Shown piece after piece: positions 70-34,900 of a stretch of DNA of 35,638 nt. This stretch comes from Modestobacter excelsi (GTDB lineage Bacteria > Actinomycetota > Actinomycetes > Mycobacteriales > Geodermatophilaceae): NCBI RefSeq assembly GCF_005930495.1, contig NZ_SJEX01000053.1:1-35638 (forward strand). Direction: 5' to 3'. How positions within the stretch are numbered: the first letter of the stretch is position 1; each line of letters starts with the position of its first letter. The translations under genes and the position numbers were made by a program. Below the pieces are notes generated by a model. It was not told where the DNA came from and did not search any database. It worked only from the letters and a program-made list of their open reading frames with translations.

Positions 70-545
70 GCCGCACCTCCGGATCGGGGAGGACGACCTC
101 GACCGGCGGCGTCCAGCCCGTCGGCGAACTTCTCCAGCAGGGCGGAGAACTGGCGGGCCTCGTCCTCCGTCCAGTCCGACAGCGCCTCGGCCGCCCACTG
201 GCCCCGGGTCTCCCGGGTGTGCGCGAGGGCAGCCGCCCCCGCGTCACTCAGCCGGATCAGGCTGGCCCGGCCGTCGAGCGGGTCGGGACGTCGCTCGACG
301 TACCCCGATCGCTCCAGCGCCGACACCTGCCGGCTGACGACCGAGACGTCGACGCCGGCCTGACCGGCCAGCGCGCTGCACCGCTGCTCACCGTCCTGCT
401 CGAGCGGGACCAGCAGCGCCCAGCCGAAGGACGGGAGGTCGCCGTAGAGGTCCGCGGCGACCCGGTGCCCGAGGTGCTTGGCGGTGCGGACCAGCCGGGC
501 CATCCCGGTGGTGAGCCGTTCGGAGGTCTCCCGGGTCAGCTGCAC
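66..545 (-). CDS. MarR-family transcriptional regulator
   Basis: A 159-residue winged-helix regulator of usual MarR length. The recognition helix lies around VSVVSRQVSALERSGYVER (about residues 67-85), followed by the wing with the family signature DPLDGRASLIRLSDAG (about 87-102). The GTG start (545-543) has an AGAGGA ribosome-binding site about 8 bases upstream; no in-frame ATG fits better. Its stop overlaps the start of the next gene (ATGA), so the two form an operon. A TTGCAT-N17-CATGAT promoter lies upstream with a TTG-N7-CAA inverted repeat over its -35 box, which suggests autorepression. The ligand is unknown. A second MarR gene at 17415-17942 is similar around SRQV and DGRA and may be a paralogue. 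Confidence 0.9.
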   Translation of the reverse strand: MQLTRETSERLTTGMARLVRTAKHLGHRVAADLYGDLPSFGWALLVPLEQDGEQRCSALAGQAGVDVSVVSRQVSALERSGYVERRPDPLDGRASLIRLSDAGAAALAHTRETRGQWAAEALSDWTEDEARQFSALLEKFADGLDAAGRGRPPRSGGAA

Positions 546-720: not shown

Positions 721-3633
721 TCAGCCGGCGAGGGCCTCCAGCACCAGCTCCGCCGGGTGCCACGCCGTCCGCTGGGTGCCGTGGAAGATCTGCTGCCGGC
801 AGGAGACGCCGGTGGCCGCGATGACCGCGTCCGCCGGGGCCGACCGGACCGCCGGGAACAACCGGTCCTCCCCCACCTGCAGCGAGATGTCGTAGTGCTC
901 GGACTCGAACCCGAAGGACCCCGCCATGCCGCAGCAACCGGCGTCGAGCTCCTGCACCGTGACGCCGGGGATGCGGCTCAGCAGCGCCACCGTCGCGGCC
1001 GTACCGGCCTCGGCCTTCTGGTGGCAGTGGCCGTGGAAGACGATCGTCCGCCCGGCCAGCCAGGTGTCGCTGCGCAGCGGCAGACGGCCGTCGTCGATCG
1101 CCTCGACCAGCAGCTCCTCGGGCAGCCGCACCCGGCCGGCGACGTCCCGCACGTTCGGGTCGTCGGGCAGCAGGTCCACGTGCTCGGCCCGCAGCGTGAG
1201 GATGCAGCTGGGCTCGCACCCGACGATCGGCGAGCCCGGCTCGGTGCCCGCGCACAGGTTCGCCGCCAGCTTCTGCGCCTTGCCCCGGGCGTCGTCCAGC
1301 ATGCCCTTGGAGATGCTGGCCCGGCCGCAGCAGCCCTTGCTCTCCAGCCGGACCGGGTGCCCGGCCGCCTCCAGCAGCCGGACCACGGCCTGGCCGATGC
1401 CGGGCTCGGTGTAGCTGGTGAACGAGTCGGCGAGCATGGTGACCGGCTGCTGGGTCGCGCCCGCCGGTGCCTCGTGCTTGCGGAACCACCGGACGAGGGT
1501 CTGCCGGTGGAACGTCGGCAGGTCCCGCTGGCGGGCGATCCCGAGCCGCGAGTCCATCAGCGCCCGCAGCGGCTTCAGCTTCAACGGCAGGTTCGACAGC
1601 GGTGCCGTCGCCGCGCCGAGCCGGTTCAGCGTGCGGATGGCCCCGAAGGCCCGCGAGCGCAGCGGCGTCCCGTGCACGTCGTGCTCGGCCGCCAGCGCCT
1701 CGCTCTTCATCGCCGAGACGTCGACACCCAGCGGGCACTCGCTCTTGCAGGCCTTGCACATCAGGCACAGGTCGAGCACCTCGTGCAGCCGCTCGTCGGC
1801 CAGCGCGGTGTGCGGGTCGGCCTCGCTCAGCGCCTTGACCAGCGCGCCGGCCCGGCCGCGGGTGGAGTGCTCCTCCATCCGGGTGGCGATGTAGGAGGGG
1901 CACATCGCACCGGTCGTGGACTTGCGGCACAGCCCGATGTTCATGCACCGGTCGGCGGCGCCGAACATCCCGCCGACGACGTCGAACTGCAGCCGGGTGC
2001 GCAGCGGTCCGGGCTGCGGCGGGTTCTCGTCACGCAGGTGCTCGGTCATCGACGGCGAGTCGACGATCTTGCCCGGGTTCAGCGTGCCCCGCGGGTCGAA
2101 CAGGCCCTTGACCTGGCGCATGGCCTCGTAGAGCTCGTCCCCGAAGAGCTCCCGGTTGAACTCGCTGCGGGCCAGCCCGTCGCCGTGCTCGCTGGAGTTC
2201 ACCCCGCCGTACTCCCGGACCAGGTCCTTGACCTCCACCGCGACCGAGCGCATGACCTCGACCTGCCCGGGCCTGCTCAGGTCGACGAAGGGCCGGATGT
2301 GCAGGCAGCCGACCGAGCAGTGCCCGTAGAAGCCCGCCTCCAGCCCGTGCCGGTCCAGCACGTCCTTGAACCGCGCCGTGTACTCGGCCAGGTGCACCGG
2401 GTCGACGGCGGTGTCCTCGACGAAGGCCAGCGGCCGCCGGGCACCCTCCGAGTTGGCCATCAGCAGGCCCAGCGCGGACTTGCGCACCTTGAGCAGGGCG
2501 CCCTGCTGGGCGGGGGTGACCGCGCGCAGCGTGTGGTAGCCGTGGCCGTTGCGCTCCCAGCGCTCGACCAGCGCGTCCATCGCCGCGACCAGCTCGGCCT
2601 CGTCGTCCCCGGTGAAGGAGACGAACAGCAGCGCCTCGGGGTCGCCCTGCAGGATCTTCCCGAGCGCGGCGTACTCGATCTTCCGCCGCGACAGGTCGAG
2701 GATCGTCCGGTCCAGCAGCTCGACCCCGGCCGGGGAGAACGCCAGGGCGTCCTCGGTGGCGTTGATCGCGCCCTGCACCGTCTCGAAGTGACCCACCGCG
2801 AACACCTGGCGGGACGGCTTGGGCACCAGGCCCACCCGCGCCGAGGTGACGATCGCCAGCGTGCCCTCCGAGCCGACCAGGAACTTCGCCAGGTCGAAGG
2901 GCTGCCCGTCGGCGAGCCGGTCCAGCCGGTAGCCGCCGGCCCGCCGCCAGAACCGCGGGAACCCGGTCGCGATCGCCCCGGCGTTCTCGGCCACCAGCTC
3001 GGGCAGCCGCCGGTGGATCTCCGCCTCGAGGGTGCCGCCCTGCGCGCGGCGGGCCCGCTCGGTCTCGTCGACCACACCGAAGGTGGCCGTCGACCCGTCG
3101 GCCAGGACGACGTCGACCTCCTGCACGTGGTCGATGGTCATGCCGAAGCGCACCGAGCCGCTGCCGGCGGAGTTGTTGCCGATCATCCCGCCGATCGTGG
3201 CGCGGTTGGAGGTCGAGGTGTCCGGGCCGAACATCAGCCCGTGCGGCGCCGCGGCCCGGTTGAGGTCGTCCTGGACCACGCCCGGCTCGACCCGCGCGGT
3301 GGCCGTGACCGGGTCCAGCTCGGTGATCCGGTGCATGTGCCGGGACAGGTCGAGCACCAGGCCCGGGCCCACGGTCTGCCCGGCGAGGCTGGTGCCGGCC
3401 CCGCGGGCCAGCACCGGGACGCCGGCCTCGGCGGCCAGCCGGACGGCGGCGACCACGTCGGCGGTGTGCGCCGGGTAGGCCACCCCCAGCGGCGTCATGG
3501 TGTACATCGAGGCGTCCTGGCTGAACAGGTGCCGGGTGTAGTCGTCGAAGGCGACCTCGCCGTCCAGCGCGCGGGTCAGCTCGCGCTCCAGGTCCTCCGC
3601 GCCCACACGAGCGCGCTCCGGGGCCGCCGTCAT
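721..3633 (-). CDS. FAD-binding and Fe-S D-2-hydroxyacid dehydrogenase (D-lactate dehydrogenase/YdiJ-like)
   Basis: A 970-residue fusion. The N-terminal half is a PCMH-type FAD domain (GAGTSLAGQTVGPG near 78-91, GGMIGNNSAGSGS near 147-159, FLVGSEGTLA near 250) with an FAD-oxidase C-terminal domain. A ferredoxin-like region carries CMNIGLC (from C563), GAMCPSY and CLMCKACKSECP (from C623), the ligands of two [4Fe-4S] clusters. Two CCG domains follow (GCCGRAS at C768/C769; GCCGMAG near the C-terminus). This is the GlcD+GlcF-type fusion family that includes D-lactate and D-2-hydroxyglutarate dehydrogenases; it passes electrons to the respiratory chain. The ATG (3633-3631) overlaps the aminotransferase stop as ATGA, so the two are cotranscribed. 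The substrate is unproven: D-lactate, D-2-hydroxyglutarate, D-glycerate or another 2-hydroxyacid are all possible. Confidence 0.9.
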   Translation of the reverse strand: MTAAPERARVGAEDLERELTRALDGEVAFDDYTRHLFSQDASMYTMTPLGVAYPAHTADVVAAVRLAAEAGVPVLARGAGTSLAGQTVGPGLVLDLSRHMHRITELDPVTATARVEPGVVQDDLNRAAAPHGLMFGPDTSTSNRATIGGMIGNNSAGSGSVRFGMTIDHVQEVDVVLADGSTATFGVVDETERARRAQGGTLEAEIHRRLPELVAENAGAIATGFPRFWRRAGGYRLDRLADGQPFDLAKFLVGSEGTLAIVTSARVGLVPKPSRQVFAVGHFETVQGAINATEDALAFSPAGVELLDRTILDLSRRKIEYAALGKILQGDPEALLFVSFTGDDEAELVAAMDALVERWERNGHGYHTLRAVTPAQQGALLKVRKSALGLLMANSEGARRPLAFVEDTAVDPVHLAEYTARFKDVLDRHGLEAGFYGHCSVGCLHIRPFVDLSRPGQVEVMRSVAVEVKDLVREYGGVNSSEHGDGLARSEFNRELFGDELYEAMRQVKGLFDPRGTLNPGKIVDSPSMTEHLRDENPPQPGPLRTRLQFDVVGGMFGAADRCMNIGLCRKSTTGAMCPSYIATRMEEHSTRGRAGALVKALSEADPHTALADERLHEVLDLCLMCKACKSECPLGVDVSAMKSEALAAEHDVHGTPLRSRAFGAIRTLNRLGAATAPLSNLPLKLKPLRALMDSRLGIARQRDLPTFHRQTLVRWFRKHEAPAGATQQPVTMLADSFTSYTEPGIGQAVVRLLEAAGHPVRLESKGCCGRASISKGMLDDARGKAQKLAANLCAGTEPGSPIVGCEPSCILTLRAEHVDLLPDDPNVRDVAGRVRLPEELLVEAIDDGRLPLRSDTWLAGRTIVFHGHCHQKAEAGTAATVALLSRIPGVTVQELDAGCCGMAGSFGFESEHYDISLQVGEDRLFPAVRSAPADAVIAATGVSCRQQIFHGTQRTAWHPAELVLEALAG

Positions 3634-4802
3634 GCCTGCTGCAGGCGCTCGAGCGCGGCCTGGATCCCCTGCGGGTCCACCTGCACCCCGGCCCGGACCA
3701 GGCCCATCTGCACCCCGCCCAGGGTGCCGACCAGGGTCAGGTCGTTGAAGTGGCCCAGGTGCCCGATGCGGAACACCTTGTCCGCGAGCTTGCCCAGGCC
3801 CGCGCCCAGCGACATGTCGTACTCGCGCAGGATGACCTCCCGGACGGCGTCCGCCCCGCCGTCGGGCATCCAGATGGCGGTCAGCGAGCCGGAGTACTCG
3901 CGCTCGTCCAGGGCCAGCACCTCCAGCCCCCAGCCGCGGACCGCGGCGCGGGTGGCCTCGGCGTGCCGGGTGTGCCGGGCATAGACCTGCGCCAGCCCCT
4001 CCTCCTGCATCATCGTCAGCGCCTCGCGCAAGGCGTACAGCAGGTTCGTGGCCGGCGTGTAGGGCCAGAACCCGCGCTGGTTGGCGGCCAGGATCGGCTG
4101 CCAGTCGAAGAAGGACCGCGGCAGCCCGGCCGTCTTGCTGGCCTGCAGCGCCTTCTCGCTGACCGCGTTGAAGCTCAGCCCGGGCGGGAGCATGAGCCCC
4201 TTCTGCGAGCCGGCGACCGTGACGTCGACGCCCCACTCGTCGTGCCGGTACTCGATGCTGCCCAGCGAGGAGATCGTGTCCACCAGCAGCAGCGCGGGGT
4301 GGCCGGCGTCGTCGATCGCCCGGCGGACCTCCGCGACCCGGCTGGTGACGCCGGTGGAGGTCTCGTTGTGGACCACCATGACGGCCTTGATCGCATGCCC
4401 GGTGTCCGCCTCGAGCCGCTCCCGGGCCGCGTCGGGGTCGGCACCGTGCCGCCAGTCGCCGGGGACGAACTGCACCTGCAGGCCCAGCCGCTCGGCCATC
4501 TCCCGCCAGAGGGTGGCGAAGTGGCCGGTCTCGAAGGCCAGCACGGTGTCCCCGGGGGACAGCGTGTTCGTCAGCGCCGCCTCCCACGCCCCGGTGCCCG
4601 ACGCCGGGTAGAAGACCACCGGCTGGGTGGTGCCGAAGACCGGCTTGACGGCCTCGAGCACCTCGAGGCCGAGCGCGGCGAACTCCGGGCCGCGGTGGTC
4701 GATGGTCGGCGCCGCCATGGCGCGCAGGACCCGGTCGGGCACGTTCGTCGGGCCGGGGATCTGCAGGAAGTGGCGTCCGCCGGTGGTCGTCGTCGCTGGC
4801 AT
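3630..4802 (-). CDS. PLP-dependent serine/alanine-glyoxylate aminotransferase
   Basis: A 390-residue class V aminotransferase. The N-terminal LQIPGPTNVPDRVLRAM and the GSQKGLMLPPGLSFNAVS motif with the PLP lysine at K201 are typical of serine-glyoxylate aminotransferases, which make glycine from glyoxylate with serine or alanine as donor. The related ureidoglycine-glyoxylate aminotransferase (PucG) belongs to the same superfamily and cannot be excluded by eye. The ATG (4802-4800) has GAGAGGG upstream and gives the normal family length; in-frame sequence further upstream lacks family motifs. It is the first gene of a minus-strand unit with the D-2-hydroxyacid dehydrogenase (ATGA overlap). It diverges from the matC-like operon; malate synthase and glycolate oxidase nearby support a glyoxylate-handling role. 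Confidence 0.9.
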   Translation of the reverse strand: MPATTTTGGRHFLQIPGPTNVPDRVLRAMAAPTIDHRGPEFAALGLEVLEAVKPVFGTTQPVVFYPASGTGAWEAALTNTLSPGDTVLAFETGHFATLWREMAERLGLQVQFVPGDWRHGADPDAARERLEADTGHAIKAVMVVHNETSTGVTSRVAEVRRAIDDAGHPALLLVDTISSLGSIEYRHDEWGVDVTVAGSQKGLMLPPGLSFNAVSEKALQASKTAGLPRSFFDWQPILAANQRGFWPYTPATNLLYALREALTMMQEEGLAQVYARHTRHAEATRAAVRGWGLEVLALDEREYSGSLTAIWMPDGGADAVREVILREYDMSLGAGLGKLADKVFRIGHLGHFNDLTLVGTLGGVQMGLVRAGVQVDPQGIQAALERLQQA

Positions 4803-5028: not shown

Positions 5029-6540
5029 GTGTCCGTACAGCTCGTCTTGATCCTGATACTCCTGGCGATCTTCCTGATCGCCACGGTCCTGCCCGTGCAC
5101 ATGGGGGCCCTCGGGTTCGTCGCGACGTTCATCGCGGCGTACTTCATCTTCGGCACCGAGGGGGACCTGCCCTACGACGACGCGGTCTTCGGCTTCTTCC
5201 CCGGGTCGTTGTTCGTCGTCCTGGTCGGGGTGACCTACCTCTTCGCGATCGCGAAGAACAACGGCACGGTCGACTGGCTGGTGCACGCTGCGGTCAAGGC
5301 CTCCGGTGGCCGGCTGTCGGCCATCCCGTGGGCGATGTTCGCGGTGACCGGGGCGCTGACCGCCATCGGCGGCGTCGTGCCCGCCGTGGTGGCGATCATC
5401 GCGCCGGTGGGCATGTCCTTCGCCCGGCGCTACTCCATCAACCCGGTGCTGATGGGCCTGTTCATCATCAACGGCGCCACCGCAGGCGGCTTCTCGCCGC
5501 TGTCGATCTTCGGCGTCATCACCAACACCGTGGTCGAGGACAACGACCTCGCGGGCAGCCCGCTGTTCCTCTGGGGCGCCTCGATCGTCATCAACGTCCT
5601 GCTGTCGATCGGCGTCTTCTTCCTCTTCGGCGGCCGCAAGCTGCTCGGCGGTGGCCGGGTCGACATCGGCGACCAGCACGACGACGACTTCGTGGCGGCC
5701 ACCGTGGCCGGGGACGCGACCGAGGACACCGGCGAGGACATCCCCGGGGGCGCCAGCGCCGCGCGGACGGCCGTGGGCAGCACCAGCACCGGTGGGGCGG
5801 CGATCTCCGGGGGGCGGGTCACCGAGGCGCGGCACGGCCAGCCGGGGCACGAGCACCCCACCGCCGGCGAGCGCGCCGACCAGCGGTCGCTGCAGACGAC
5901 GGCACTGGCGGAGGAGCCGCACGAGGGCCAGGTCACCACGCTCGACCGGGACCGCGCTCTCACCCTGGGCGGGCTGGTGCTGCTGGTCGTCGGCGCACTG
6001 GTCTTCGACCTGGACATCGGCCTGATGGCCATCACCGTCGGCGTGCTGCTGTCGATCGTCGCGCCGCGGGGCGCGAAGGGGGCCGTCGGCCAGATCGCCT
6101 GGCCGACCGTGCTGCTCATCTGCGGCATCGTCACCTTCGTCGGCCTCATGCAGGAGGAGGACGTCCCCGGCTGGCTCGGCGACAACGTGGCCAAGCTCGG
6201 TGTCCCGCTGATCGCCGCGCTGCTGATCTGCTACATCGGCGGCGTGGTCTCGGCCTTCGCCTCGACCACCGGCATCCTCGGCGCCCTGATCCCGCTCGCC
6301 GTCCCGTTCCTGCAGGGCGACAACGCGGTCGGGGCGATCGGGCTGATCACCGCGCTGGCGCTGTCGTCGTCGATCGTGGACTCCAGCCCGTTCTCCACCA
6401 GCGGTGCCCTGGTGGTCGCCAACGCCACCGAGGCCGAGCGGGACAGGACGTTCCGGACCCTGATGATCTGGGGCTTCTCGATGGTCGCGATCATCCCGTT
6501 GGTCACCTGGCTGGTGCTGGTCGTCCCCGGCTGGCTCTAG
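5029..6540 (+). CDS. MatC-like dicarboxylate carrier (SLC13/CitMHS-type permease)
   Basis: A 503-residue integral membrane protein with about 10-12 hydrophobic segments. The N-terminus (MSVQLVLILILLAIFLIATVLPVHMGALGFVA) is like the MatC N-terminal domain of dicarboxylate/malonate carriers, and FIINGATAGGFSPLSIFGVI is the conserved re-entrant-type segment. The C-terminal half has the matching repeat (SSSIVDSSPFSTSGALVVANA). Residues about 212-308 form a long hydrophilic, acidic and Gly/Ala-rich loop between the halves, unusually large for this type. The GTG start has AGGGGA about 7 bases upstream. It heads an operon with a CaiB-type CoA-transferase and a crotonase-fold enzyme, so the imported acid is probably activated as a CoA thioester. 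Malonate, another dicarboxylate or a C4 acid are candidates; the sequence does not decide. Confidence 0.85.
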   Translation: MSVQLVLILILLAIFLIATVLPVHMGALGFVATFIAAYFIFGTEGDLPYDDAVFGFFPGSLFVVLVGVTYLFAIAKNNGTVDWLVHAAVKASGGRLSAIPWAMFAVTGALTAIGGVVPAVVAIIAPVGMSFARRYSINPVLMGLFIINGATAGGFSPLSIFGVITNTVVEDNDLAGSPLFLWGASIVINVLLSIGVFFLFGGRKLLGGGRVDIGDQHDDDFVAATVAGDATEDTGEDIPGGASAARTAVGSTSTGGAAISGGRVTEARHGQPGHEHPTAGERADQRSLQTTALAEEPHEGQVTTLDRDRALTLGGLVLLVVGALVFDLDIGLMAITVGVLLSIVAPRGAKGAVGQIAWPTVLLICGIVTFVGLMQEEDVPGWLGDNVAKLGVPLIAALLICYIGGVVSAFASTTGILGALIPLAVPFLQGDNAVGAIGLITALALSSSIVDSSPFSTSGALVVANATEAERDRTFRTLMIWGFSMVAIIPLVTWLVLVVPGWL

Positions 6541-6554
6541 ACGCACCCAGCCCC

Positions 6555-6597
6555 GCGACCGCGCCCCGGACGGCTCCCGCCGCCGGGGCGCGGTCGC
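6555..6597 (+). terminator. Hairpin between the matC-like and caiB-like genes
   Basis: Arms 6555-6569 and 6583-6597 are perfect 15-base complements around a 13-base loop, 14 bases after the carrier's TAG. It is a strong GC hairpin without a T-run. Because the CoA-transferase gene starts 33 bases later with no obvious promoter of its own, it may act as a partial terminator or mRNA stabiliser rather than a complete stop. Confidence 0.65.
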
Positions 6598-6629
6598 GTC
6601 CGGAACCGACGAGGACCCTGGAGACCCAC

Positions 6630-7841
6630 GTGAGCACACCCGACCCGTCCGAGGACCGACCACCACTGACCGGCGTCACCGTGCTGGAGGTGGGCGTCTT
6701 CATGGCGGCGCCCTACGCCTCCATGCAGCTGGCCGACCTCGGGGCCCGCGTGCTCAAGGTCGAGGACCCCCGGGCCGGCGACCCGGTGCGCGCCAGCGGC
6801 CCGTTCCTGGACGGCGAGAGCTCGCCGTACCTCCGGCTGAACCGGAACAAGGAGTCGGTCGCGCTGGACCTCAAGTCCGCCGCCGGCAAGGAGGCCTTCC
6901 TCGCGCTCGTGCGGACCGCGGACGTCGTCATCGAGAACCTGCGACCCGGCGCGATGGCCCGGCTCGGGCTCGACGCCGCGGCGATCTGGGCGGTCAACCC
7001 CCGGGTGGTCTGCGCCTCCGGGTCCGGCTGGGGCCAGGACGGGCCGCTGGCGCCGCTGCCCGGGCTGGACATCATGGCCCAGGCCCGCAGCGGGATCATG
7101 AGCATCACCGGCACCCCGGGCGGCGAGCCGGTGAAGGTCGGCGTCCCGGTCTGCGACCTGGTGTGCGGGCTGTACCTGGCGCTGGCGGTGACCGCCGCGC
7201 TGCGCGAGCGCGACCGCACCGGTCGCGGCCAGTCGATCGACGTCTCGCTGTTCGAGGCGGGGGTGAGCCTGGCGGTCTGGGAGGCCGGCAAGTACTTCGC
7301 CACCGGCGAGGTCGGCGGGCCGCTGGGCTCGGCGCACCAGAGCCAGGCGCCGTACCAGGCGTTCCAGACCGCGGACGGCTGGATCACCATCGGCGCGAAC
7401 ACGCCCAACACCTGGGCCGGCCTGTGCCGCACGCTGGACATGCCCGACGAGCTGGCCGACGAGGGTCACGGCGACGCCACCCGCCGGCACGCCCGCCGCG
7501 GTGAGCTGCTGGACGTCGTGGAGTCCCGCACCCGCCGGCGCACCACCGCCGAGCTGCTCGCCGCCCTCGGCGCGGCCGGGGTGCCGTGCGCGCCGATCAA
7601 CGACTACGGCGAGGTCTTCACCGACGAGCACCTCACCGCCCGCGCCTTCTTCTGGGACGCCCCCCACCCCGCGCTGGGGCCGGTGCGGCAGATCGGCTCG
7701 CCGATGCGCTTCTCCCGCACGCCGGCCGTCCGCGGGGTCGCCGGTCCACCGCTGGGCGCGGACACCCGCGCGGCGCTGGAACGCTCCGGCGTGCCCGCCG
7801 GGGTCGTCGCCGCGGTGTGCTCCCCGGGGGGTCGGGCATGA
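6630..7841 (+). CDS. CaiB/BaiF family (family III) CoA-transferase
   Basis: A 403-residue protein of normal family III length. The start region LTGVTVLEVGVFMAAPYASMQLADLGARVLKVEDP is the classical N-terminal motif of CaiB/formyl-CoA transferases; NRNKESVALDLKS and the catalytic aspartate in PGLDIMAQARSG (D147) are present. The enzymes move CoA between acids through an aspartyl-CoA mixed anhydride. The GTG start (6630) has GGAG about 10 bases upstream. The stop overlaps the next ATG (ATGA), so it is coupled to the crotonase-fold gene. With the upstream carrier it probably activates an imported carboxylic acid. There is no oxalyl-CoA decarboxylase nearby, which argues against formyl-CoA/oxalate use. 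Confidence 0.92.
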   Translation: MSTPDPSEDRPPLTGVTVLEVGVFMAAPYASMQLADLGARVLKVEDPRAGDPVRASGPFLDGESSPYLRLNRNKESVALDLKSAAGKEAFLALVRTADVVIENLRPGAMARLGLDAAAIWAVNPRVVCASGSGWGQDGPLAPLPGLDIMAQARSGIMSITGTPGGEPVKVGVPVCDLVCGLYLALAVTAALRERDRTGRGQSIDVSLFEAGVSLAVWEAGKYFATGEVGGPLGSAHQSQAPYQAFQTADGWITIGANTPNTWAGLCRTLDMPDELADEGHGDATRRHARRGELLDVVESRTRRRTTAELLAALGAAGVPCAPINDYGEVFTDEHLTARAFFWDAPHPALGPVRQIGSPMRFSRTPAVRGVAGPPLGADTRAALERSGVPAGVVAAVCSPGGRA

Positions 7842-8623
7842 GCGAGCTCGAGATCGGCCAGGACGGCGGCGTCCTCACGGTGCTGTTCAACCGGCCCGAG
7901 GCGCGCAACGCGATGACGTTCGCGATGTACGAGGGCCTGGAGGAGGCGTGCGCGCGGGCCGACGACGACGAGTCGGTGCGGGTGCTGGTGCTGCGCGGCG
8001 CCGGCGGCCGGGCCTTCGTGGCCGGCACCGACATCGCCCAGTTCCTGGACTTCGGGCGCGGGGAGCTCACCAGCGGCGAGGACGGCATCGCGTACGAGGC
8101 GCGGATCGAGCGGGTGGTCAACCGGCTGGAGGACGTGACCGTGCCGACCGTCGCCGCGGTCGAGGGTGCCTGCGTGGGCGGCGGGCTGGCGCTGGCGGCC
8201 GCCTGCGACCTGCGGATCGCGACGACGTCGTCCCGGTTCGGCGTCCCGATCGCCCGCACCCTGGGCAACTGCCTGTCGATGAACTCCTACTCGCTGCTGG
8301 TCCACCACCTGGGCCCCGGCCGGACGCTGGACATGCTGCTGCGGGCGAGGTTGCTGTCGGCCGACGACGCGCACGCGGCCGGCTTCGTCGGCGAGGTGGT
8401 GCCCGACGGAGAACTCGACCCGGCGCTCACCTCCCTGGTGGAGACGCTGCTCGGGCACGCCCCGCTGAGCATGAGGGCAGCCGGCCAGGCGGTGGCCCGG
8501 CTGCGGCGGGCGAGCCTGCCCGACGGCGACGACCTGGTGCGCGAGGTCTTCGGCAGTGCCGACTTCCGGGCCGGGGTGCAGGCCTTCGTCGACCGTGGAC
8601 AGGTCAGCTGGACCGGCCGCTGA
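7838..8623 (+). CDS. Crotonase-fold enzyme (enoyl-CoA hydratase/isomerase family) lacking both catalytic Glu residues
   Basis: A 261-residue crotonase. The acyl-CoA pocket and oxyanion hole are present (AGTDIAQF near residue 64, EGACVGGGLALAAACD at 109-124). The positions of the two acid/base glutamates of enoyl-CoA hydratase are replaced: GGGCE is GGGLA (A118) and FGxPE is FGVPI (I138), followed by ARTLGNCLSM. A standard hydration mechanism is therefore unlikely; decarboxylation, hydrolysis, isomerisation or C-C cleavage of a CoA thioester are possible for this fold. The ATG overlaps the CoA-transferase stop. The 3' end overlaps the convergent iclR gene by 20 bases. It probably acts on the thioester made by the upstream transferase. 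Confidence 0.88.
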   Translation: MSELEIGQDGGVLTVLFNRPEARNAMTFAMYEGLEEACARADDDESVRVLVLRGAGGRAFVAGTDIAQFLDFGRGELTSGEDGIAYEARIERVVNRLEDVTVPTVAAVEGACVGGGLALAAACDLRIATTSSRFGVPIARTLGNCLSMNSYSLLVHHLGPGRTLDMLLRARLLSADDAHAAGFVGEVVPDGELDPALTSLVETLLGHAPLSMRAAGQAVARLRRASLPDGDDLVREVFGSADFRAGVQAFVDRGQVSWTGR

Positions 8624-9419
8624 GCGCGCGGGCACCGTCCTCGCGCAGCTCGGCGGCGAGCGCGGCTGCGGTCTCCTGCAGCTGGGCGACGATCCCCGGG
8701 ACGCTGCCCATCGGCACCCGCCCCTCGGGGCCGGACACCGAGATGGCGGTCATCAGCGGCCCGCCGGGCACCGGCACGGCCACGCAGCGGACGCCGGTCT
8801 CCTGCTCCCCGTCGTCGAGCGCGTAGCCCTGGGCGGCGATCTGCGGCAGCCGGGCCATCATCTCGTCCGGGTCGGTGACCGTCAGCGGCGTGCGCCGGGG
8901 CATGCCGCCGCGGACCAGGAGCTCGCGGGCGGTCGGGGCCGGGAGCTGGGCCAGCAGCGCCTTGCCCACCCCGGTGCAGTGCAGGTGCACCCGGCGGCCG
9001 ACCTCGGTGAACATCCGCATCGAGTGCCGGGAGGGCACCTGGGCGACGTAGACCACCCGGTCGCCGTCGAGCATCGCCAGGTTCGCCGTCTCCCCCGTGG
9101 CATCGACCAGGGTGCTGAGGTGCGGCCGCGCCCAGGTCCCCAGCGTGCGCGAGGAGCTCTCGCCGAGGTGGATCAGCCGGGGCCCGAGCACGTAGCGCCG
9201 GGAGGGCAGCTGCCGGACGTAGCCGCGGGCGACGAGCGTGCGGACCAGCCGGTGGATGGTGGACAGCGGGAGCCCGCTGTCCACCGCGAGCCGGGACAGG
9301 GCGACCTCGCCGCCGTCCTCGGCCATCAGCTCCAGCAGCAGGAAGGCCCGCTCCAGGGACTGCACACCGCCGTCGCTGCCGTTCCCGCCGTTGCTGCCCG
9401 GGCCGCTGGTCTCGGCCAT
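8604..9419 (-). CDS. IclR-family transcriptional regulator
   Basis: A 271-residue regulator. The N-terminal winged helix starts at VQSLERAFLLLELMAE and has the helix-turn-helix LSRLAVDSGLPLSTIHRLVRTLVARGYV (about 42-69). The C-terminal GAF-like effector domain has the IclR signature VGRRVHLHCTGVGKALLA and YALDDGEQETGVRCVAVPV. The ATG has an AGAGAGG ribosome-binding site. It is divergent from aceB, the position of a local repressor, and tandem repeats at 9548-9585 in the shared promoter region are probable binding sites. A similar element lies at 4966-4980. IclR-type effectors of glyoxylate genes include glyoxylate and pyruvate; whether these bind here is inference. The 3' end overlaps the crotonase gene tail to tail by 20 bases. 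Confidence 0.92.
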   Translation of the reverse strand: MAETSGPGSNGGNGSDGGVQSLERAFLLLELMAEDGGEVALSRLAVDSGLPLSTIHRLVRTLVARGYVRQLPSRRYVLGPRLIHLGESSSRTLGTWARPHLSTLVDATGETANLAMLDGDRVVYVAQVPSRHSMRMFTEVGRRVHLHCTGVGKALLAQLPAPTARELLVRGGMPRRTPLTVTDPDEMMARLPQIAAQGYALDDGEQETGVRCVAVPVPGGPLMTAISVSGPEGRVPMGSVPGIVAQLQETAAALAAELREDGARALSGRSS

Positions 9420-9649: not shown

Positions 9650-11251
9650 ATGAGCACGGTCGACGGCGTGGAGATCACCGGTCCGATGGGTCCCCGGTTC
9701 GACGAGATCCTGACCCCCCAGGCGCTCGAGCTGATCGCCCGGCTGCACCGGGAGCTCAACGGCCGGCGGCTGGAGCGGCTGCAGGCGCGCAGGGAGCGGG
9801 TGCAGGCGCTCGCCGACGGCGGCACGCTGGACTTCCTGCCGGAGACCGCGTCGATCCGCGAGGACGACTCGTGGCGGGTCGCGCCGCCGGCGCCCGGCCT
9901 GATCGACCGCCGGGTGGAGATGACCGGCCCGACCGACCGCAAGATGACCATCAACGCGCTCAACTCCGGCGCCAAGTGCTGGCTCGCCGACCAGGAGGAC
10001 GCGAACTCCCCGCTGTGGGAGAACGTCGTCAACGGCCCGCTGAACCTGATGGACTCGATCGACCGGACGATCGACTTCACCAACGAGGCCGGCAAGAGCT
10101 ACACGCTGCGCCCCGACGACGAGCTGCCCACGATCATCGTGCGGCCGCGCGGCTGGCACCTGCCGGAGAAGCACATCACCGTCGACGGCGAGCAGACCTC
10201 GGGCAGCCTGGTCGACTTCGCGCTCTACCTGGTGGCCTGCGGGAAGAAGCAGGTCGACCGCGGCCAGGGGCCCTACTTCTACCTGCCGAAGATGGAGAGC
10301 CACCTCGAGGCGCGGATGTGGAACGAGGCCTTCGTCATCGGCCAGGAGCACATCGGCATCCCGCGCGGCACCATCCGGGCGACCTGCCTGATCGAGACCT
10401 ACCCGGCGGCGTTCGAGATGGAGGAGATCCTCTACGAGCTGCGCGAGCACTCCTCCGGCCTGAACGCCGGCCGCTGGGACTACCTGTTCAGCGTCATCAA
10501 GACCTTCCGCACCCGCGGGTCGGACTTCACGCTGCCCGACCGCAACTCGATCACGATGACCGTGCCGTTCATGCGCGCCTACACCGAGCTGCTGGTGCGC
10601 ACCTGCCACAAGCGCGGCGCGCACGCGATGGGCGGCATGTCGGCGTTCATCCCGAGCAAGGACCCGGCGAAGAACGAGTTCGCGTTCAACAAGATCACCG
10701 AGGACAAGTCGCGCGAGGCCAACGACGGCTTCGACGGCTCCTGGGTGGCCCACCCGGGCATGGTGCAGACGGCGATGGACGCCTTCGACAAGGTGCTCGG
10801 TGACCGGCCGAACCAGCTGGACAAGCTGCGCGAGGACGTGCACGTCACCGCCGCGGACCTGCTCAACGTCAAGGCCACCCCCGGTGAGGTGACCGAGGCC
10901 GGGCTGCGGGCCAACGTCAGCGTCGGCATCCAGTACGTGGAGTCCTGGCTGCGCGGCTCCGGCGCCGCCGGCATCAACGGCCTGATGGAGGACGCCGCCA
11001 CCGCGGAGATCAGCCGCAGCCAGGTGTGGCAGTGGCTGCACAACGGCGTGACGCTGTCCGACGGCGAGCCGGTCACCACCGAGCTGGTGCAGCGGGTCAT
11101 CGAGGAGGAGGTCGCGGCCATCGCCGAGGCCCGGGGAGATGCGTACGCCTCCGGCCGATGGGACGATGCCCGGGCGCTGTTCACCGAGATGGCCCTGGGG
11201 GAGGAGTACAACGACTTCCTCACCGTCCCGGCGTACGAGCGCATGCCCTGA
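9650..11251 (+). CDS. aceB: Malate synthase A
   Basis: A 533-residue protein, the normal length of malate synthase A, which condenses glyoxylate with acetyl-CoA to malate. Family motifs are NSGAKCWLADQEDANSPLWENVV (about 104-126), RPRGWHLPEKH with the catalytic arginine region (about 165-175), GPYFYLPKMESHLEARMWN, GTIRATCLIETYPAAFEMEEILYELR and LNAGRWDYLFSVIK. The C-terminal domain with its acid/base region is complete. The ATG has GGGAGAG upstream. It diverges from iclR, with a promoter and candidate operators between them. No isocitrate lyase is in the window; together with glcDEF downstream, the glyoxylate source may be glycolate as much as the glyoxylate shunt. A hairpin after the stop separates it from glcD. 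Confidence 0.97.
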   Translation: MSTVDGVEITGPMGPRFDEILTPQALELIARLHRELNGRRLERLQARRERVQALADGGTLDFLPETASIREDDSWRVAPPAPGLIDRRVEMTGPTDRKMTINALNSGAKCWLADQEDANSPLWENVVNGPLNLMDSIDRTIDFTNEAGKSYTLRPDDELPTIIVRPRGWHLPEKHITVDGEQTSGSLVDFALYLVACGKKQVDRGQGPYFYLPKMESHLEARMWNEAFVIGQEHIGIPRGTIRATCLIETYPAAFEMEEILYELREHSSGLNAGRWDYLFSVIKTFRTRGSDFTLPDRNSITMTVPFMRAYTELLVRTCHKRGAHAMGGMSAFIPSKDPAKNEFAFNKITEDKSREANDGFDGSWVAHPGMVQTAMDAFDKVLGDRPNQLDKLREDVHVTAADLLNVKATPGEVTEAGLRANVSVGIQYVESWLRGSGAAGINGLMEDAATAEISRSQVWQWLHNGVTLSDGEPVTTELVQRVIEEEVAAIAEARGDAYASGRWDDARALFTEMALGEEYNDFLTVPAYERMP

Positions 11252-11290: not shown

Positions 11291-11333
11291 GTGGGCGCAC
11301 TCCCTGCAGGTCCGGCGACGAAGGCGGAACCTC

Positions 11334-12890
11334 ATGAGCGGCACGCACGGCACGCAGACGTCGGCAGGCCCGGTCCTGGGCGACACCCCACCGGAGGCCA
11401 CCGCGGCCACCGGTGAGGTCGGCGACAACGCAGCGGGCATGGCGGCGGTGGGCCGGGTCGCCCGGGCGCTGATGCCCGACACCGGGGTCATCTCCGACCC
11501 CACCCAGCTGCGCACCTACGAGTGCGACGGCCTGGCGCACTACCGGGTCACCCCCGCCCTGGTGGTCCTCCCGGAGACGACCGAGCAGCTCGCCGGGGTG
11601 GTGCGCGCGTGCGCCGAGCACGGCGTCCCCTTCGTCGCCCGCGGGTCGGGGACCGGGCTGTCCGGCGGCGCCCTGCCGCGGGCCGACGGCGTCCTGGTCG
11701 TCACCTCCCGGATGCGCACCATCCGCGAGGTGCGCCGGGCCGACCAGCGCGCGGTCCTCGAGCCCGGTGTCATCAACCTCGACGTCACCCGGGCGGCGAC
11801 CGGCGAGGGCTACTACTACGCGCCGGACCCCAGCAGCCAGCAGATCTGCTCGATCGGCGGCAACCTGGCGGAGAACTCCGGCGGTGCGCACTGCCTCAAG
11901 TACGGCTTCACCAGCAACCACGTCCTCGGCGCCGAGCTGGTCACCCCGCAGGGCGACGTCGTGCAGCTCGGCGGGCTGGCGCCGGACGCGCCCGGCTACG
12001 ACCTGCTGGGCACCGTCGTCGGCTCGGAGGGGACCCTGGGCATCGCGACGACCGCGACGGTCCGGCTGGTCCGGCTGCCGGAGGAGGTCCGCACCCTGCT
12101 CGTCGGCTTCCGCTCCACCGACGACGCCGGCGCGGCCACCTCGGCGATCATCGGCAGCGGCGTGCTGCCGGCGGCGATCGAGATGATGGACGCCCTCGCC
12201 ATCGAGGCCGCCGAGGCCGCGGTGCACTGCAACTACCCCGACGGCGCCGGCGCGGTGCTGGTCATCGAGCTCGACGGCCCCGCGGCCGAGGTGCAGCACG
12301 AGTACGACGTCGTCGAGCGGCTCTGCCAGGAGCACGGCTCGTTCGAGCTGCGGCTGGCCATCGACGCCACCGAGCGGGCGCTGATCTGGAAGGGCCGCAA
12401 GTCCGCGTTCGCCGCGGTCGGCCGGATCAGCCCCGACTACATCGTCCAGGACGGCGTCATCCCGCGGACCGCGCTGCCGGAGGTGCTGCGCGCGATCGCC
12501 GACCTGTCGTCGTCCTCGGGGGTGCGGGTGGCCAACGTCTTCCACGCCGGCGACGGGAACCTGCACCCCCTCGTGCTGTTCGACGACGGCAAGCCGGGGG
12601 CCGGCGAGGCCGCCGAGAAGGTCAGCGGCGCGATCCTGGACCTCTGCATCACCCACGGCGGGGCGATCACCGGCGAGCACGGCGTCGGCGTGGACAAGGC
12701 GGCCTACATGCCGAAGATGTTCACCGACGACGACCTGGACACCATGCAGCTGGTGCGCTGCGCCTTCGACCCCGGCGGGATCGCGAACCCGGGCAAGGTG
12801 TTCCCGACCCCGCGCCTGTGCGGTGAGGTGCCGGGCAAGCGCAAGCACGCCCACCCCCTCGTCGAGGCCGGCCTGGCGGACGCGTTCTGA
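11334..12890 (+). CDS. glcD: Glycolate oxidase subunit GlcD (FAD-linked)
   Basis: A 518-residue PCMH-type flavoprotein, close to the family length of about 500. The FAD-binding region has PFVARGSGTGLSGGALP (about 101-117), SSQQICSIGGNLAENSGGAHCLKYG and LLGTVVGSEGTLGIAT. The C-terminal FAD-oxidase domain has ANVFHAGDGNLHPL and GAITGEHGVGVDKA. GlcD oxidises glycolate (or D-lactate) to glyoxylate (or pyruvate) as a complex with GlcE and GlcF. The ATG at 11334 follows AGGCGGAA and adds about 40 poorly conserved N-terminal residues. Its TGA overlaps the glcE ATG (TGATG), so the subunits are translationally coupled. It follows aceB, the enzyme that consumes glyoxylate. Confidence 0.95.
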   Translation: MSGTHGTQTSAGPVLGDTPPEATAATGEVGDNAAGMAAVGRVARALMPDTGVISDPTQLRTYECDGLAHYRVTPALVVLPETTEQLAGVVRACAEHGVPFVARGSGTGLSGGALPRADGVLVVTSRMRTIREVRRADQRAVLEPGVINLDVTRAATGEGYYYAPDPSSQQICSIGGNLAENSGGAHCLKYGFTSNHVLGAELVTPQGDVVQLGGLAPDAPGYDLLGTVVGSEGTLGIATTATVRLVRLPEEVRTLLVGFRSTDDAGAATSAIIGSGVLPAAIEMMDALAIEAAEAAVHCNYPDGAGAVLVIELDGPAAEVQHEYDVVERLCQEHGSFELRLAIDATERALIWKGRKSAFAAVGRISPDYIVQDGVIPRTALPEVLRAIADLSSSSGVRVANVFHAGDGNLHPLVLFDDGKPGAGEAAEKVSGAILDLCITHGGAITGEHGVGVDKAAYMPKMFTDDDLDTMQLVRCAFDPGGIANPGKVFPTPRLCGEVPGKRKHAHPLVEAGLADAF

Positions 12891-14158
12891 TGACCACGGT
12901 CAGCCTCGACGCGGCGCGCACCGCGCTGTCCTCCGCGTGCGGCGACGTCACCGACGCCGGCCCGGCCGACGCCGTCGACGGGGTGCCCGCCAGGCTGGTC
13001 GCCCGGCCCGGCACGACCGCGGAGACCGCAGCCGTGCTGCAGGCGGCGGCCGGCCACGGGCTCACCGTCGTCCCCCGCGGGCGCGGGACGAAGCTGTCGT
13101 GGGGCCGGCCGCCCGAGCGCGCCGACCTGGTCCTGGACATGAGCCGGATGTCCGCCGTCCTGGACCACGCTGCCGGTGACCTGATCGTGCACGCGCAGGC
13201 CGGCACGCTGCTGGCCGACGTGCAGCAGACCGTCGGCTCGGCGGGGCAGCGGCTCTCCCTCGACGAGTCCGTCCCCGGCACGTCGATCGGCGGTGCCCTG
13301 GCGACCAACACCAGCGGCCCCGGCCGCCTGGTCGTCGGGACCGCGCGCGACCTGCTGCTCGGGGTCACCCTGGTCCGCGCCGACGGGGTCGTCGCCAAGG
13401 CGGGCGGGCGGGTGGTCAAGAACGTGGCCGGCTACGACCTGGGCAAGCTGGTCATCGGCTCGTTCGGCACCCTCGCCGTCATCACCGACGCGGTCTTCCG
13501 GCTGCACCCGCTGCCGGCCGCCCAGCGGTTCGTCACGGTGCCCTTCGGCACGGCCGAGGACGCGGCGGCGCTGGTCCAGACGATGGTGCACTCCCAGGTG
13601 GTCCCCGCGGCGGTCGAGGTGGAGTGGCGGGTCGACGGCGCCGGCACGGTCGGCGTGCTCCTCGGCGGCACCCCCGCCGGGGTCGAGGCCCGGACGGCGG
13701 CCACGCTGGAACTGCTCGGCACCGGCGCCGAGGCGGCCGAGACGCCACCTCCGGGCTGGGGGGCGCTGCCCTGGCGGGACGACGCCGACCTGCCGGAGGT
13801 CGGGCTGAAGCTCACCTGCGCGCTGTCCGGGCTGGCGCCGGTGCTGGACGCGGCCCGCCGCGCCGCCGCCGATGCGGGGGTGCCGCTGACGCTGCGGGGC
13901 TCCGGCGGGTCCGGTGTGCTGTACGCCGCGCTGGCCGCCGACGCCCCGGTCGACGCGGTCGCCGCCGTGGTCGAGCGCACCCGCACCGCGTGCACCGCGC
14001 ACGGCGGCTCGCTGGTGGTGCTCGAGGCGCCGGCTGCGGTGCAGGCAGCCGTGGACACCTGGGGTCCCGTGCCGGCCATCGACCTGATGCGCCGGGTCAA
14101 GGAGCAGTTCGACCCGGAGCGCCGCCTGGCGCCCGGCCGCTTCGTCGGAGGCATCTGA
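12890..14158 (+). CDS. glcE: Glycolate oxidase subunit GlcE (FAD-binding)
   Basis: A 422-residue FAD-binding subunit with a shortened PCMH domain: LTVVPRGRGTKLSWGRPPERADLVLDMSRM (about 57-86), VPGTSIGGALATNTSGPGRLVVGTARDLLLGV and AGYDLGKLVIGSFGTLAVITDAVFRLHPLP, all typical of GlcE. The C-terminus LMRRVKEQFDPERRLAPGRFVGGI matches the family end. It is slightly longer than the E. coli protein of about 350 residues. It works with GlcD and GlcF at the membrane. Both ends overlap the neighbouring genes in TGATG junctions. Confidence 0.95.
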   Translation: MTTVSLDAARTALSSACGDVTDAGPADAVDGVPARLVARPGTTAETAAVLQAAAGHGLTVVPRGRGTKLSWGRPPERADLVLDMSRMSAVLDHAAGDLIVHAQAGTLLADVQQTVGSAGQRLSLDESVPGTSIGGALATNTSGPGRLVVGTARDLLLGVTLVRADGVVAKAGGRVVKNVAGYDLGKLVIGSFGTLAVITDAVFRLHPLPAAQRFVTVPFGTAEDAAALVQTMVHSQVVPAAVEVEWRVDGAGTVGVLLGGTPAGVEARTAATLELLGTGAEAAETPPPGWGALPWRDDADLPEVGLKLTCALSGLAPVLDAARRAAADAGVPLTLRGSGGSGVLYAALAADAPVDAVAAVVERTRTACTAHGGSLVVLEAPAAVQAAVDTWGPVPAIDLMRRVKEQFDPERRLAPGRFVGGI

Positions 14159-15561
14159 TGGGACAACCCACCACCGTCCAGGCCGAGGGGCCGCAGGACG
14201 ACCCGCGCACCGCCGGAGTGCGGGCGAGCGGCCCGGTGCCGGTCGACACGCCGACCGTGCGGCCGGCGTTCGACGACGAGCACCCGCCCTCGGCCGAGCT
14301 GATCAGCGACTGCGTGCACTGCGGCTTCTGCCTGCCGACCTGCCCCACCTACACGTTGTGGGGCGAGGAGATGGACTCCCCGCGCGGCCGGATCGACCTG
14401 ATGAAGGCCGGCCTGCAAGGCGCACCGATGACCGACACGATGGTCCAGCACTTCGACGCGTGCCTGGGCTGCATGGCCTGCGTGACCGCCTGCCCCTCCG
14501 GTGTCCAGTACGACAAGCTCATCGAGGCGACCCGGGTGCAGGTCGAGCGGCACCACACCCGCAGCCCCGGCGACCGGGCGATGCGCGCGTCGATCTTCGC
14601 GCTGTTCCCCTACAAGCGGCGGCTGCGGGCGCTGCGCGGGCCGCTGCGCGCCTACCAGGCCAGCGGGCTGCCGAAGGTGGTCCGCACCAGCGGGCTGCTG
14701 GACCGGCTGGCGCCCAAGCTGGCCGCGATGGAAGGCCTCGCCCCGGTCCTGGAGAAGCGGGAGAAGCTGCCGTCCCGGGTCCCCGCCGTGGGCGAGCGCC
14801 GGGCCGTGGTCGGGATGCTCACCGGCTGCGTGCAGGGCGAGTTCTTCCCCGGGGTCAACGCCGCGACCGCCCGGGTGCTGGCCGCCGAGGGGTGCGACGT
14901 GATCATCCCCAAGAAGCAGGGCTGCTGCGGGGCGCTGTCGGTGCACAACGGCCGGCAGGAGGAGGCCGAGCGGTTCGCGCGGGCGACGATCGACGCGTTC
15001 GAGGCCGCCGGGGTGCAGACCGTCGTGGTCAACGCCGCGGGCTGCGGGTCGAGCATGAAGGAGTACGCCGAGGTGCTCGCCGACGACCCGGCCTACGCCG
15101 AGCGCGCGAAGACCTTCGCCGCCTCGGTGCGCGACGTCTCCGAACTGCTCGCCGAGCTCGGCACCGTCGCCGAGCGGCACCCGCTGGAGGTCACCGTCGC
15201 CTACCACGACGCCTGCCACCTCGGGCACGCCCAGGGGATCCGGCAGCAACCCCGCGCGCTGCTGCGCGAGATCCCGGGCCTGCAGCTGCGGGAGATCCCG
15301 GAGGCCGAGATCTGCTGCGGGTCGGCAGGCATCTGGAACGTGCTCAACCCGGAGCCGGCCCGGGAGCTCGGCGACCGCAAGGCCCGCAACATCGCCTCCA
15401 CCGGCGCGGAGCTGCTGGTGACGGCGAACCCCGGTTGCCTGATGCAGGTGTCCTCCTCGCTGCAGCGGCAGGGCACCCGGATCGGGCTGGCGCACACCAT
15501 CGAGGTGCTCGACGCCTCCATCCGCGGCCTGCCGGTGAGCACCCTCGGGCCGCCCGACTGA
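14158..15561 (+). CDS. glcF: Glycolate oxidase Fe-S subunit GlcF
   Basis: A 467-residue Fe-S protein. Two [4Fe-4S] motifs are visible: CVHCGFCLPTCP (C52, C55, C58, C62) and CLGCMACVTACP (C102, C105, C108, C112). Two CCG domains follow (KKQGCCGALSVHNG; EAEICCGSAGIWNVLNPEPARELGDRKARNI). It takes electrons from GlcD/GlcE to the quinone pool. The ATG overlaps the glcE stop; about 45 acidic and Pro-rich residues precede the first cluster, and no better internal start is evident. The permease gene follows after 39 bases, with its own ribosome-binding site. Confidence 0.96.
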   Translation: MGQPTTVQAEGPQDDPRTAGVRASGPVPVDTPTVRPAFDDEHPPSAELISDCVHCGFCLPTCPTYTLWGEEMDSPRGRIDLMKAGLQGAPMTDTMVQHFDACLGCMACVTACPSGVQYDKLIEATRVQVERHHTRSPGDRAMRASIFALFPYKRRLRALRGPLRAYQASGLPKVVRTSGLLDRLAPKLAAMEGLAPVLEKREKLPSRVPAVGERRAVVGMLTGCVQGEFFPGVNAATARVLAAEGCDVIIPKKQGCCGALSVHNGRQEEAERFARATIDAFEAAGVQTVVVNAAGCGSSMKEYAEVLADDPAYAERAKTFAASVRDVSELLAELGTVAERHPLEVTVAYHDACHLGHAQGIRQQPRALLREIPGLQLREIPEAEICCGSAGIWNVLNPEPARELGDRKARNIASTGAELLVTANPGCLMQVSSSLQRQGTRIGLAHTIEVLDASIRGLPVSTLGPPD

Positions 15562-31708: not shown

Positions 31709-31737
31709 CGGCGCCACTCCCAGACCCAGGAGCATCG

Positions 31738-32739: not shown

Positions 32740-32741
32740 GG

Positions 32742-34830: not shown

Positions 34831-34900
34831 CAGCCCGCCACCAGCAGAGTCCCGATCATGCCCCGACGGTACGTGCGGGTCCGGACGTGTGCCCTCCGGT

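Follow-up and report, generated by a model that had tools for sequence, protein, structure and literature searches.

A carrier, CoA-transferase and crotonase gene unit that may feed a hydroxydicarboxylate, possibly tartrate, into glyoxylate metabolism

Three adjoining genes of Modestobacter excelsi, encoding a dicarboxylate carrier (matC), a family III CoA-transferase (coaT) and an atypical crotonase (ech), may supply the first steps of a larger module, one converting an imported C3–C4 hydroxydicarboxylate, most likely tartrate, to two-carbon acids, a reading to which we give a probability of about one in three. An aminotransferase (AGT) and a 2-hydroxyacid oxidase (FADox), both transcribed divergently from matC, very likely belong to the same module.

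Organization of the locus

The window, the whole 35,638-nt stretch of DNA that was analysed (contig NZ_SJEX01000053.1), carries the three genes on the forward strand in open frames at 5029–6540, one ending at 7841 and 7838–8623, with coaT and ech overlapping at ATGA (Table 1). A MatC-type carrier, a family III CoA-transferase and a crotonase-fold protein had been called at these places in an earlier note, and profile searches bear these calls out: matC scores 163.5 bits against Pfam MatC_N (gathering threshold 23) and 98.1 bits against CitMHS, coaT reaches 416.4 bits against PF02515 on the frame 6573–7841 (gathering threshold 23.3) and ech scores 136 bits against ECH_1. More specific names for coaT were tried and rejected. 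All seven matching NCBIfam models (glutarate, mesaconate, oxalate/formyl, carnitine and 2-methylfumaryl) fall below their cut-offs, and of the Frc, CaiB, succinate–glutarate, mesaconate and YfdE-type oxalate CoA-transferases the best is succinate–glutarate, at 273.4 bits versus 750; the nearest solved chains are succinate–hydroxymethylglutarate and formyl-CoA transferases.

Table 1 Features of the window and their proposed functions
Feature	Position	Strand	Description
FADox	721..3630	-	YdiJ/GlcD-like 2-hydroxyacid oxidase with FAD and Fe-S; proposed to convert glycolate to glyoxylate; start unrefined
AGT	3630..4802	-	Class-V PLP aminotransferase, BhcA-like; proposed glyoxylate to glycine
matC	5029..6540	+	Dicarboxylate carrier, MatC_N and CitMHS; proposed import step
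coaT	6630..7841	+	Family III (CaiB/BaiF/Frc) CoA-transferase, PF02515 (CoA_transf_3); GTG start at 6630 picked by eye
ech	7838..8623	+	PRK06144-type crotonase; proposed C–C bond-cleaving step
IclR-family regulator	8604..9419	-	Convergent with ech, 3′ ends overlapping by 20 bases
Malate synthase A	9650..11251	+	TIGR01344; lineage-specific neighbour, would consume glyoxylate
glcD-glcE-glcF-like glycolate oxidase	11322..15561 (11322-12890, 12890-14158, 14155-15561)	+	
LctP-family lactate/glycolate permease	15601..17355	+	TIGR00795

The divergent genes at 721–4802 had been left out of the unit in the earlier note. AGT was scored on 3630–4757, from residue 16 of its likely start (4802, taken from the frame), and its best NCBIfam model is BhcA by 274 bits (442.9 versus 168.9 for the next family); an identity as the BhcA aspartate–glyoxylate aminotransferase proper was rejected at the equivalog cut-off of 650. 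FADox scores 595.6 bits against YdiJ (cut-off 1350) and 210.9 against GlcD (cut-off 567.9), and contains the Pfam domains FAD_binding_4, FAD-oxidase_C, Fer4_8 and CCG. Downstream, malate synthase A (759.4 bits, cut-off 594.5) and the permease (463.8 bits, cut-off 341.15) pass their models. The glcD-like gene at 11322–12890 scores 540.4 and 490.3 bits against glcD models, below the cut-offs of 897 and 567.9; glcE and glcF were named by eye from their frames and used as search queries.

A crotonase fold without the hydratase glutamates

Enoyl-CoA hydratases use two catalytic glutamates, Glu144 and Glu164 in the rat enzyme. HMMER alignments to hydratases in the PDB place A118 and I138 of Ech at these positions, and none of 103 distinct family members has a glutamate at either, which upholds the description of this crotonase as atypical and led us to reject an identity as enoyl-CoA hydratase (crotonase proper). 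Ech passes the NCBIfam model PRK06144 (NF004796; 351 bits, cut-off 272), and the family has invariant residues of its own: Y86, E87, G143 and N144 are the same in all 103 relatives, and Arg or Lys is kept at position 140 in 102. We propose a non-hydrating enzyme that would split a CoA ester by a retro-aldol reaction, with Y86 and E87 as candidate catalytic residues and Arg/Lys140 as the proposed holder of the distal carboxylate.

The same positions bear on a reading in which CoaT activates the substrate, Ech only hydrates or isomerizes it and other enzymes finish the conversion. CaiB and CaiD of carnitine metabolism are a known pair of this kind, sharing with the present locus a family III CoA-transferase, a crotonase and a transporter, and some ech relatives adjoin MaoC-type hydratases. 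However, Ech and its relatives lack both hydratase glutamates and coaT scores 120.7 bits against the L-carnitine CoA-transferase model (cut-off 413), and we judge this reading very unlikely. A chemical parallel is p-hydroxycinnamoyl-CoA hydratase/lyase (HCHL), a crotonase-fold enzyme that performs the type of retro-aldol split of a β-hydroxyacyl-CoA proposed here for Ech; unlike Ech, HCHL acts on an aromatic substrate and retains a glutamate, and the ech relative at locus L129 scores 110.6 bits against its model (PRK09120; cut-off 276).

AGT and FADox recur beside ech

Several lines of evidence connect these genes. First, the trio is co-conserved in a survey of gene order, a check proposed in the earlier note. 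Close ech genes (at least 79% identity) occur in 17 of 96 Geodermatophilaceae genomes and close coaT genes (at least 84%) in the identical 17; matC adjoins coaT in 15 of the 17 short loci (L018 and L025 do not reach that far); the two genomes concerned show the same adjacency in their longer loci, L053 and L061. The exceptions are one relative (G071, L146), where matC is retained at a site that has lost coaT and ech, Nocardiopsis trehalosi, with matC and coaT–ech on separate contigs, and L073, where matC is followed directly by ech.

Second, AGT accompanies ech across several phyla: 31 of the 80 named loci have it nearby, 27 of them with coaT adjoining ech. Among 95 ech loci typed for both genes, 30 carry AGT and FADox, 4 AGT alone and 61 neither, so that FADox without AGT was found in none of the 61 typed loci lacking AGT. 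A quick tree built from 119 ech sequences shows a minimum of 12 changes of state for the AGT neighbourhood and 9 for FADox; on its starred branches, 5–6 independent pairs agree and none disagree (sign test, p 0.03–0.06, median 0.0625).

Third, the association extends to whole genomes. AGT is present in 18 of the 96 Geodermatophilaceae genomes, all 18 of which have ech (24 of 96 overall; Fisher 1e-14, uncorrected for kinship). At the class level, 4 of 296 genomes have AGT and each of the four also has ech, in one case on a separate contig (ech in 14 of 296 overall; p 7e-5, own genome left out).

AGT, usually with FADox, recurs beside ech in Actinobacteria, Solirubrobacter and several proteobacterial classes, and the transporters vary. 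The order is GntR-FADox-AGT-TRAP-ech-coaT in Limimaricola, FADox-aldolase-AGT-MFS-coaT-ech in Methylobacterium, FADox-GntR-AGT-Bug-ech-coaT in an order-mate of a Rubrivivax MAG, ech-coaT-AGT-FADox in Halomonas (with glcDEF-like genes 6–10 kb off) and, with FADox missing, coaT-ech-BASS-AGT in Acidiphilium.

Glycolate or glyoxylate rather than acetyl-CoA as the probable output

The earlier note suggested that the trio could end in acetyl-CoA, a co-substrate of the nearby malate synthase. A malate synthase (at least 150 bits) lies near ech in 10 of the 80 named loci, every one from Geodermatophilaceae, with an additional partial match of ~105 residues in L061. Because this neighbour is confined to one family and AGT and FADox accompany ech more widely, the output of the conserved module is probably glycolate or glyoxylate, not acetyl-CoA, and we lean towards a C2 hydroxy- or oxo-acid as the product. 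What stands of the original proposal is a co-conserved import, CoA-transfer and crotonase unit in a glyoxylate cluster; neither for it nor for the larger module did we find a named pathway or paper in the open-licence literature.

That output in turn weakens the malonate route suggested in the same note, in which CoaT would form malonyl-CoA and Ech decarboxylate it to the acetyl-CoA used by malate synthase. The MatC_N carrier fits malonate and crotonase-fold decarboxylases exist, but AGT, the 2-hydroxyacid oxidase and the tartrate dehydrogenase found beside some ech genes are left unexplained, and no malonate-specific gene was recognized by eye in the listed loci; we hold this route to be quite improbable. 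Another reading is a lyase acting on malate, D-malate or citramalate, with CoaT forming malyl-CoA and Ech yielding acetyl-CoA and glyoxylate in place of a CitE-type enzyme. Such a lyase would account for the glyoxylate aminotransferase and the dicarboxylate carrier, malate synthase adjoins the unit in Geodermatophilaceae, and tartrate dehydrogenases of the TIGR02089-type family can use D-malate. Yet malate cleavage followed by malate synthase is circular, no glycolate would be made for the recurrent oxidase, and the genome encodes four proteins of clear HpcH/HpaI type, besides two marginal matches, that might do the job, so that we consider the lyase unlikely.

Links to glyoxylate and tartrate

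The glyoxylate connection appears in the best models of AGT (BhcA) and of the IclR-family regulator (BhcR, 195.9 bits, followed by PcaR/PcaU at 161.2 and IclR at 149.9), and elsewhere ech neighbours a BhcC-like aldolase (L158, 376.3 bits versus a cut-off of 690) or a GntG-type aldolase. One study (PMC11323563) describes both IclR and BhcR as responsive to glyoxylate. As a candidate for BhcR proper, the regulator was rejected at the equivalog cut-off of 350.

Tartrate is a tentative assignment of the substrate. In Caballeronia, two plasmids encode a tartrate dehydrogenase immediately 5′ of ech, one passing TIGR02089 and the second by annotation, with glcFED-glcC also alongside in the first; in one Rhizobiales genome a TIGR02089 enzyme lies ~0.4 kb from ech on the opposite strand (557 and 519.9 bits for Caballeronia and Rhizobiales, cut-off 470.4). 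Within Geodermatophilaceae, ech is present in 7 of the 9 genomes with TIGR02089 and in 17 of the 87 that lack it (uncorrected p 0.0007). The window has no TIGR02089 match, and one copy lies elsewhere in the genome (G000, contig C14).

These dehydrogenases would be left unexplained if the substrate were tartronate (hydroxymalonate), converted by CoaT to tartronyl-CoA and by a methylmalonyl-CoA decarboxylase-like Ech to glycolyl-CoA, with CoA recycled and glycolate passed to FADox and AGT. The conserved Arg/Lys would also be needless if the sole free carboxylate leaves. The L129 relative scores 119.7 bits against methylmalonyl-CoA decarboxylase (ScpB; PRK11423), far under the cut-off of 257, and this model is absent from the best 25 of 71 for Ech, the 25th at 105.1 bits, Ech scoring lower or in a near tie by E-value. 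We regard tartronate as improbable.

Proposed pathway

For tartrate, each chemical step below is our inference from gene content and homology. MatC would import the diacid, CoaT would transfer CoA to it from glycolyl-CoA, and Ech would cleave tartryl-CoA by a retro-aldol reaction to glyoxylate and glycolyl-CoA, which would hand its CoA to the next tartrate and release glycolate. Because CoA would come from glycolyl-CoA, no ATP would be spent after priming. FADox, and in the window genome GlcDEF too, would oxidize glycolate to glyoxylate; AGT would aminate glyoxylate to glycine, and in Modestobacter malate synthase could use the remainder. More speculatively, the PRK06144 family might comprise crotonase-fold β-hydroxyacyl-CoA lyases for dicarboxylates, counterparts of CitE-type malyl/citramalyl-CoA lyases, which with CoaT, AGT and FADox would give an ATP-saving route from tartrate to two glyoxylate through tartryl-CoA and glycolyl-CoA, a generalization we think doubtful. 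We found no published description of such a use of these thioesters; in the papers found, tartryl-CoA and tartronyl-CoA belong mainly to designed CO2-fixing pathways.

If the proposal is true, the annotation ‘enoyl-CoA hydratase’ is wrong for a large crotonase family, whose members would be C–C bond-cleaving enzymes; bacteria of soil, leaf surfaces and rock would turn a plant acid into glyoxylate through CoA esters while saving ATP, and natural enzymes would exist for tartryl-CoA or tartronyl-CoA. Even with another substrate acid, the recurrent AGT–FADox–CoaT–Ech module is a unit of glyoxylate metabolism that occurs in several phyla and lends itself to testing.

Comparison with known systems

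Oxalate is degraded by formyl-CoA:oxalate CoA-transferase (Frc) and oxalyl-CoA decarboxylase, a thiamine-diphosphate enzyme. There, as proposed here, a family III CoA-transferase recycles CoA from the product to the incoming diacid and a second enzyme breaks a C–C bond of the acyl-CoA; here, by contrast, the second enzyme is a crotonase, and coaT scores 192.9 bits against an Frc cut-off of 504.2. To our knowledge the β-hydroxyaspartate cycle, the source of the nearest models for AGT and the regulator, involves no CoA chemistry, unlike the present module, whose two proteins fall below the BhcA and BhcR cut-offs. That cycle (BhcABCD, BhcR) handles glycolate-derived glyoxylate, as the study cited above describes (PMC11323563).

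The rhizobial malonate operon matABC encodes a MatC carrier, a CoA ligase and MatA. The present locus likewise pairs a MatC-type carrier with CoA chemistry, except that a family III transferase replaces the ligase and a crotonase replaces MatA.

Gene content of the module

The carrier, CoA-transferase and crotonase genes that the earlier note had grouped as one unit are confirmed in the window, with an 89-base gap between matC and coaT and a 4-base overlap between coaT and ech.

Genes of the module and its surroundings in the window
Gene	Position	Strand	Remark
marR	66–545	-	
FADox, FAD/Fe-S oxidase	721–3630	-	969 residues
AGT, class-V aminotransferase	3630–4802	-	
matC, MatC-type carrier	5029–6540	+	
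coaT, family III CoA-transferase	6630–7841	+	
ech, PRK06144-type crotonase	7838–8623	+	
IclR regulator	8604–9419	-	
malate synthase A	9650–11251		
glcD/E/F-like genes	11322–15561		glcE, glcF assigned by eye
LctP-family permease	15601–17355		

The module extends beyond the trio and very probably includes AGT and FADox. Among 80 ech loci in named genomes (the best 80 of 238 relatives), coaT lies within 2.5 kb of ech in 64, and a radius of 8.5 kb takes in AGT in 31, FADox in 24, matC in 23 and malate synthase in 10. In the 95 rows typed for both genes, AGT and FADox occur together in 30 and are both missing from 61; the other 4 have AGT alone, and FADox never stands without AGT. An independent-pairs test found 5–6 concordant pairs and no discordant one (median p = 0.0625). 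AGT occurs in 18/96 Geodermatophilaceae genomes and 4/296 genomes of the class, always with ech (18/18 and 4/4; ech overall 24/96 and 14/296), although kinship among genomes inflates the significance of this co-occurrence. On a quick tree of 119 ech rows (named loci plus added plasmid and genome loci), the AGT neighbourhood state switches no fewer than 12 times, implying repeated gain or loss of the ech–AGT linkage. AGT is absent from 61/98 typed ech loci, and the ech family is therefore broader than the proposed pathway.

Three arrangements tie matC at least as closely to AGT–FADox as to coaT–ech. In one relative (genome G071, locus L146), the order is FADox–AGT–matC–iclR–malate synthase–glcD; between matC and iclR lies only a brief GC-rich segment containing direct repeats (L146 12440–12860), as if coaT–ech had been deleted there, and a diverged coaT–ech pair adjoins a GntP permease on another contig. 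Nocardiopsis trehalosi has matC–AGT–FADox on one contig and coaT–ech on another, and at locus L073 matC is followed by ech without an intervening coaT. All three genomes still hold an ech somewhere. Separately, a contig labelled Gemmatimonadetes MAG (L059) carries matC–coaT–ech 78–84% identical to those of Modestobacter, with no AGT or FADox in the stretch, reflecting either recent transfer or mis-binning.

Gene order and transporter differ between lineages, MatC being one of several types: MFS at Methylobacterium and delta-proteobacterium loci (the latter without FADox), TRAP in Limimaricola, BASS in Acidiphilium (without FADox) and a Bug-type binding protein at locus L162. Halomonas has ech, then coaT, AGT and FADox, with glcDEF-like genes 6–10 kb off.

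Crotonase fold, divergent active site

The ech product scores above the PRK06144 cut-off, with nearest relatives at 94% in Geodermatophilaceae bacterium URHA0031 and Modestobacter altitudinis, which place the window's genome in Modestobacter. It is indeed atypical: among 103 distinct relatives, neither of the two hydratase Glu positions ever holds Glu (0/103; mostly Ala/Gly and Ile), Y86, E87, G114, P137, G143, N144 and F243 are invariant, and T141 and Arg/Lys at position 140 are each conserved in 102. The AlphaFold2 model (pLDDT 95.4) has an ordinary crotonase fold. With both Glu lost and other residues invariant, the ech product is thus a crotonase whose active site differs from that of the hydratases; we infer C–C cleavage as the family's activity.

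Metabolites and candidate substrates

Judged by sequence, the enzyme set points to glycolate and glyoxylate as the module's metabolites. AGT scores 442.9 bits against BhcA (runner-up 168.9) and the IclR protein is nearest to BhcR, both below cut-off, making them relatives rather than members of these families; FADox matches profiles of FAD/Fe-S proteins of the YdiJ/GlcD kind; and in other lineages the surroundings of ech include BhcC-like or GntG-type aldolases. The GntG-type PLP aldolases at L095 1308–2354 and L106 8929–9993 (Methylobacterium and Brevibacterium) are perhaps hydroxyaspartate aldolases.

A route yielding glycolate or glyoxylate is thus favoured over the earlier proposal of malonate conversion to acetyl-CoA for malate synthase, which is weakened: malonate yields neither compound, and malate synthase is near ech at only 10/80 loci. 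The window's own genome (5.26 Mb) also encodes four clear HpcH/HpaI-type proteins and has an isocitrate lyase-type frame; malate synthase and malyl-CoA cleavage could therefore each operate independently of the module. The isocitrate lyase profile matches in two pieces within one 645-residue open frame (contig C146 109646–110872), profile positions 255–351 being unmatched between them.

Substrate and chemistry are put forward as hypotheses, among which tartrate fits best: cleavage of tartryl-CoA would give glyoxylate and glycolyl-CoA, the transferase would return CoA from glycolyl-CoA to tartrate, and each C2 product would be served by an enzyme in the module. Tartronate would explain the C2 part equally well, whereas malate would form no glycolate. 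For tartrate, tartrate dehydrogenase gives a hint: it immediately precedes ech in two Caballeronia plasmids, one also with glcFED and glcC alongside, and lies ~0.4 kb from ech on the opposite strand at a Rhizobiales locus. The first Caballeronia and the Rhizobiales proteins pass TIGR02089, the second Caballeronia one being identified by its annotation. The hint is indirect, as neither coaT nor AGT is near ech at these loci. TIGR02089 is found in 9/96 Geodermatophilaceae genomes, with ech in 7/9 of these versus 17/87 of the remainder. The window genome's own tartrate dehydrogenase is near a GntP permease ~41% identical to those beside coaT–ech in three relatives.

Other ech neighbourhoods contain MaoC-type hydratases, glycerate kinase and 3-oxo-tetronate kinase. 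Relatives of coaT–ech adjoin a MaoC/FAS1-type hydratase pair at L060 2025–2782, and a FAS1-type dehydratase, DapA-like aldolase and glycerate kinase at L144 11646–15385; they may mark a sister pathway whose substrate is a sugar diacid or an unsaturated one.

The operon appears, as first suggested, to match no named pathway: literature searches, covering mainly open-licence papers, found no paper on the trio or on PRK06144 function, and no catabolic tartryl-CoA or tartronyl-CoA. Such absence is weak evidence. One transcriptomics paper (PMC10213633) does mention 'tartryl-CoA'.

Elsewhere in the window, 30809–33386 holds by eye an aquaporin-like frame followed by dihydroxyacetone kinase subunit-like frames, and a zinc alcohol dehydrogenase-like frame lies on the opposite strand; this is probably an operon for glycerol or dihydroxyacetone. 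At 33799–34905 (-), a type III polyketide synthase-like frame adjoins a methyltransferase-like frame, likewise by eye.
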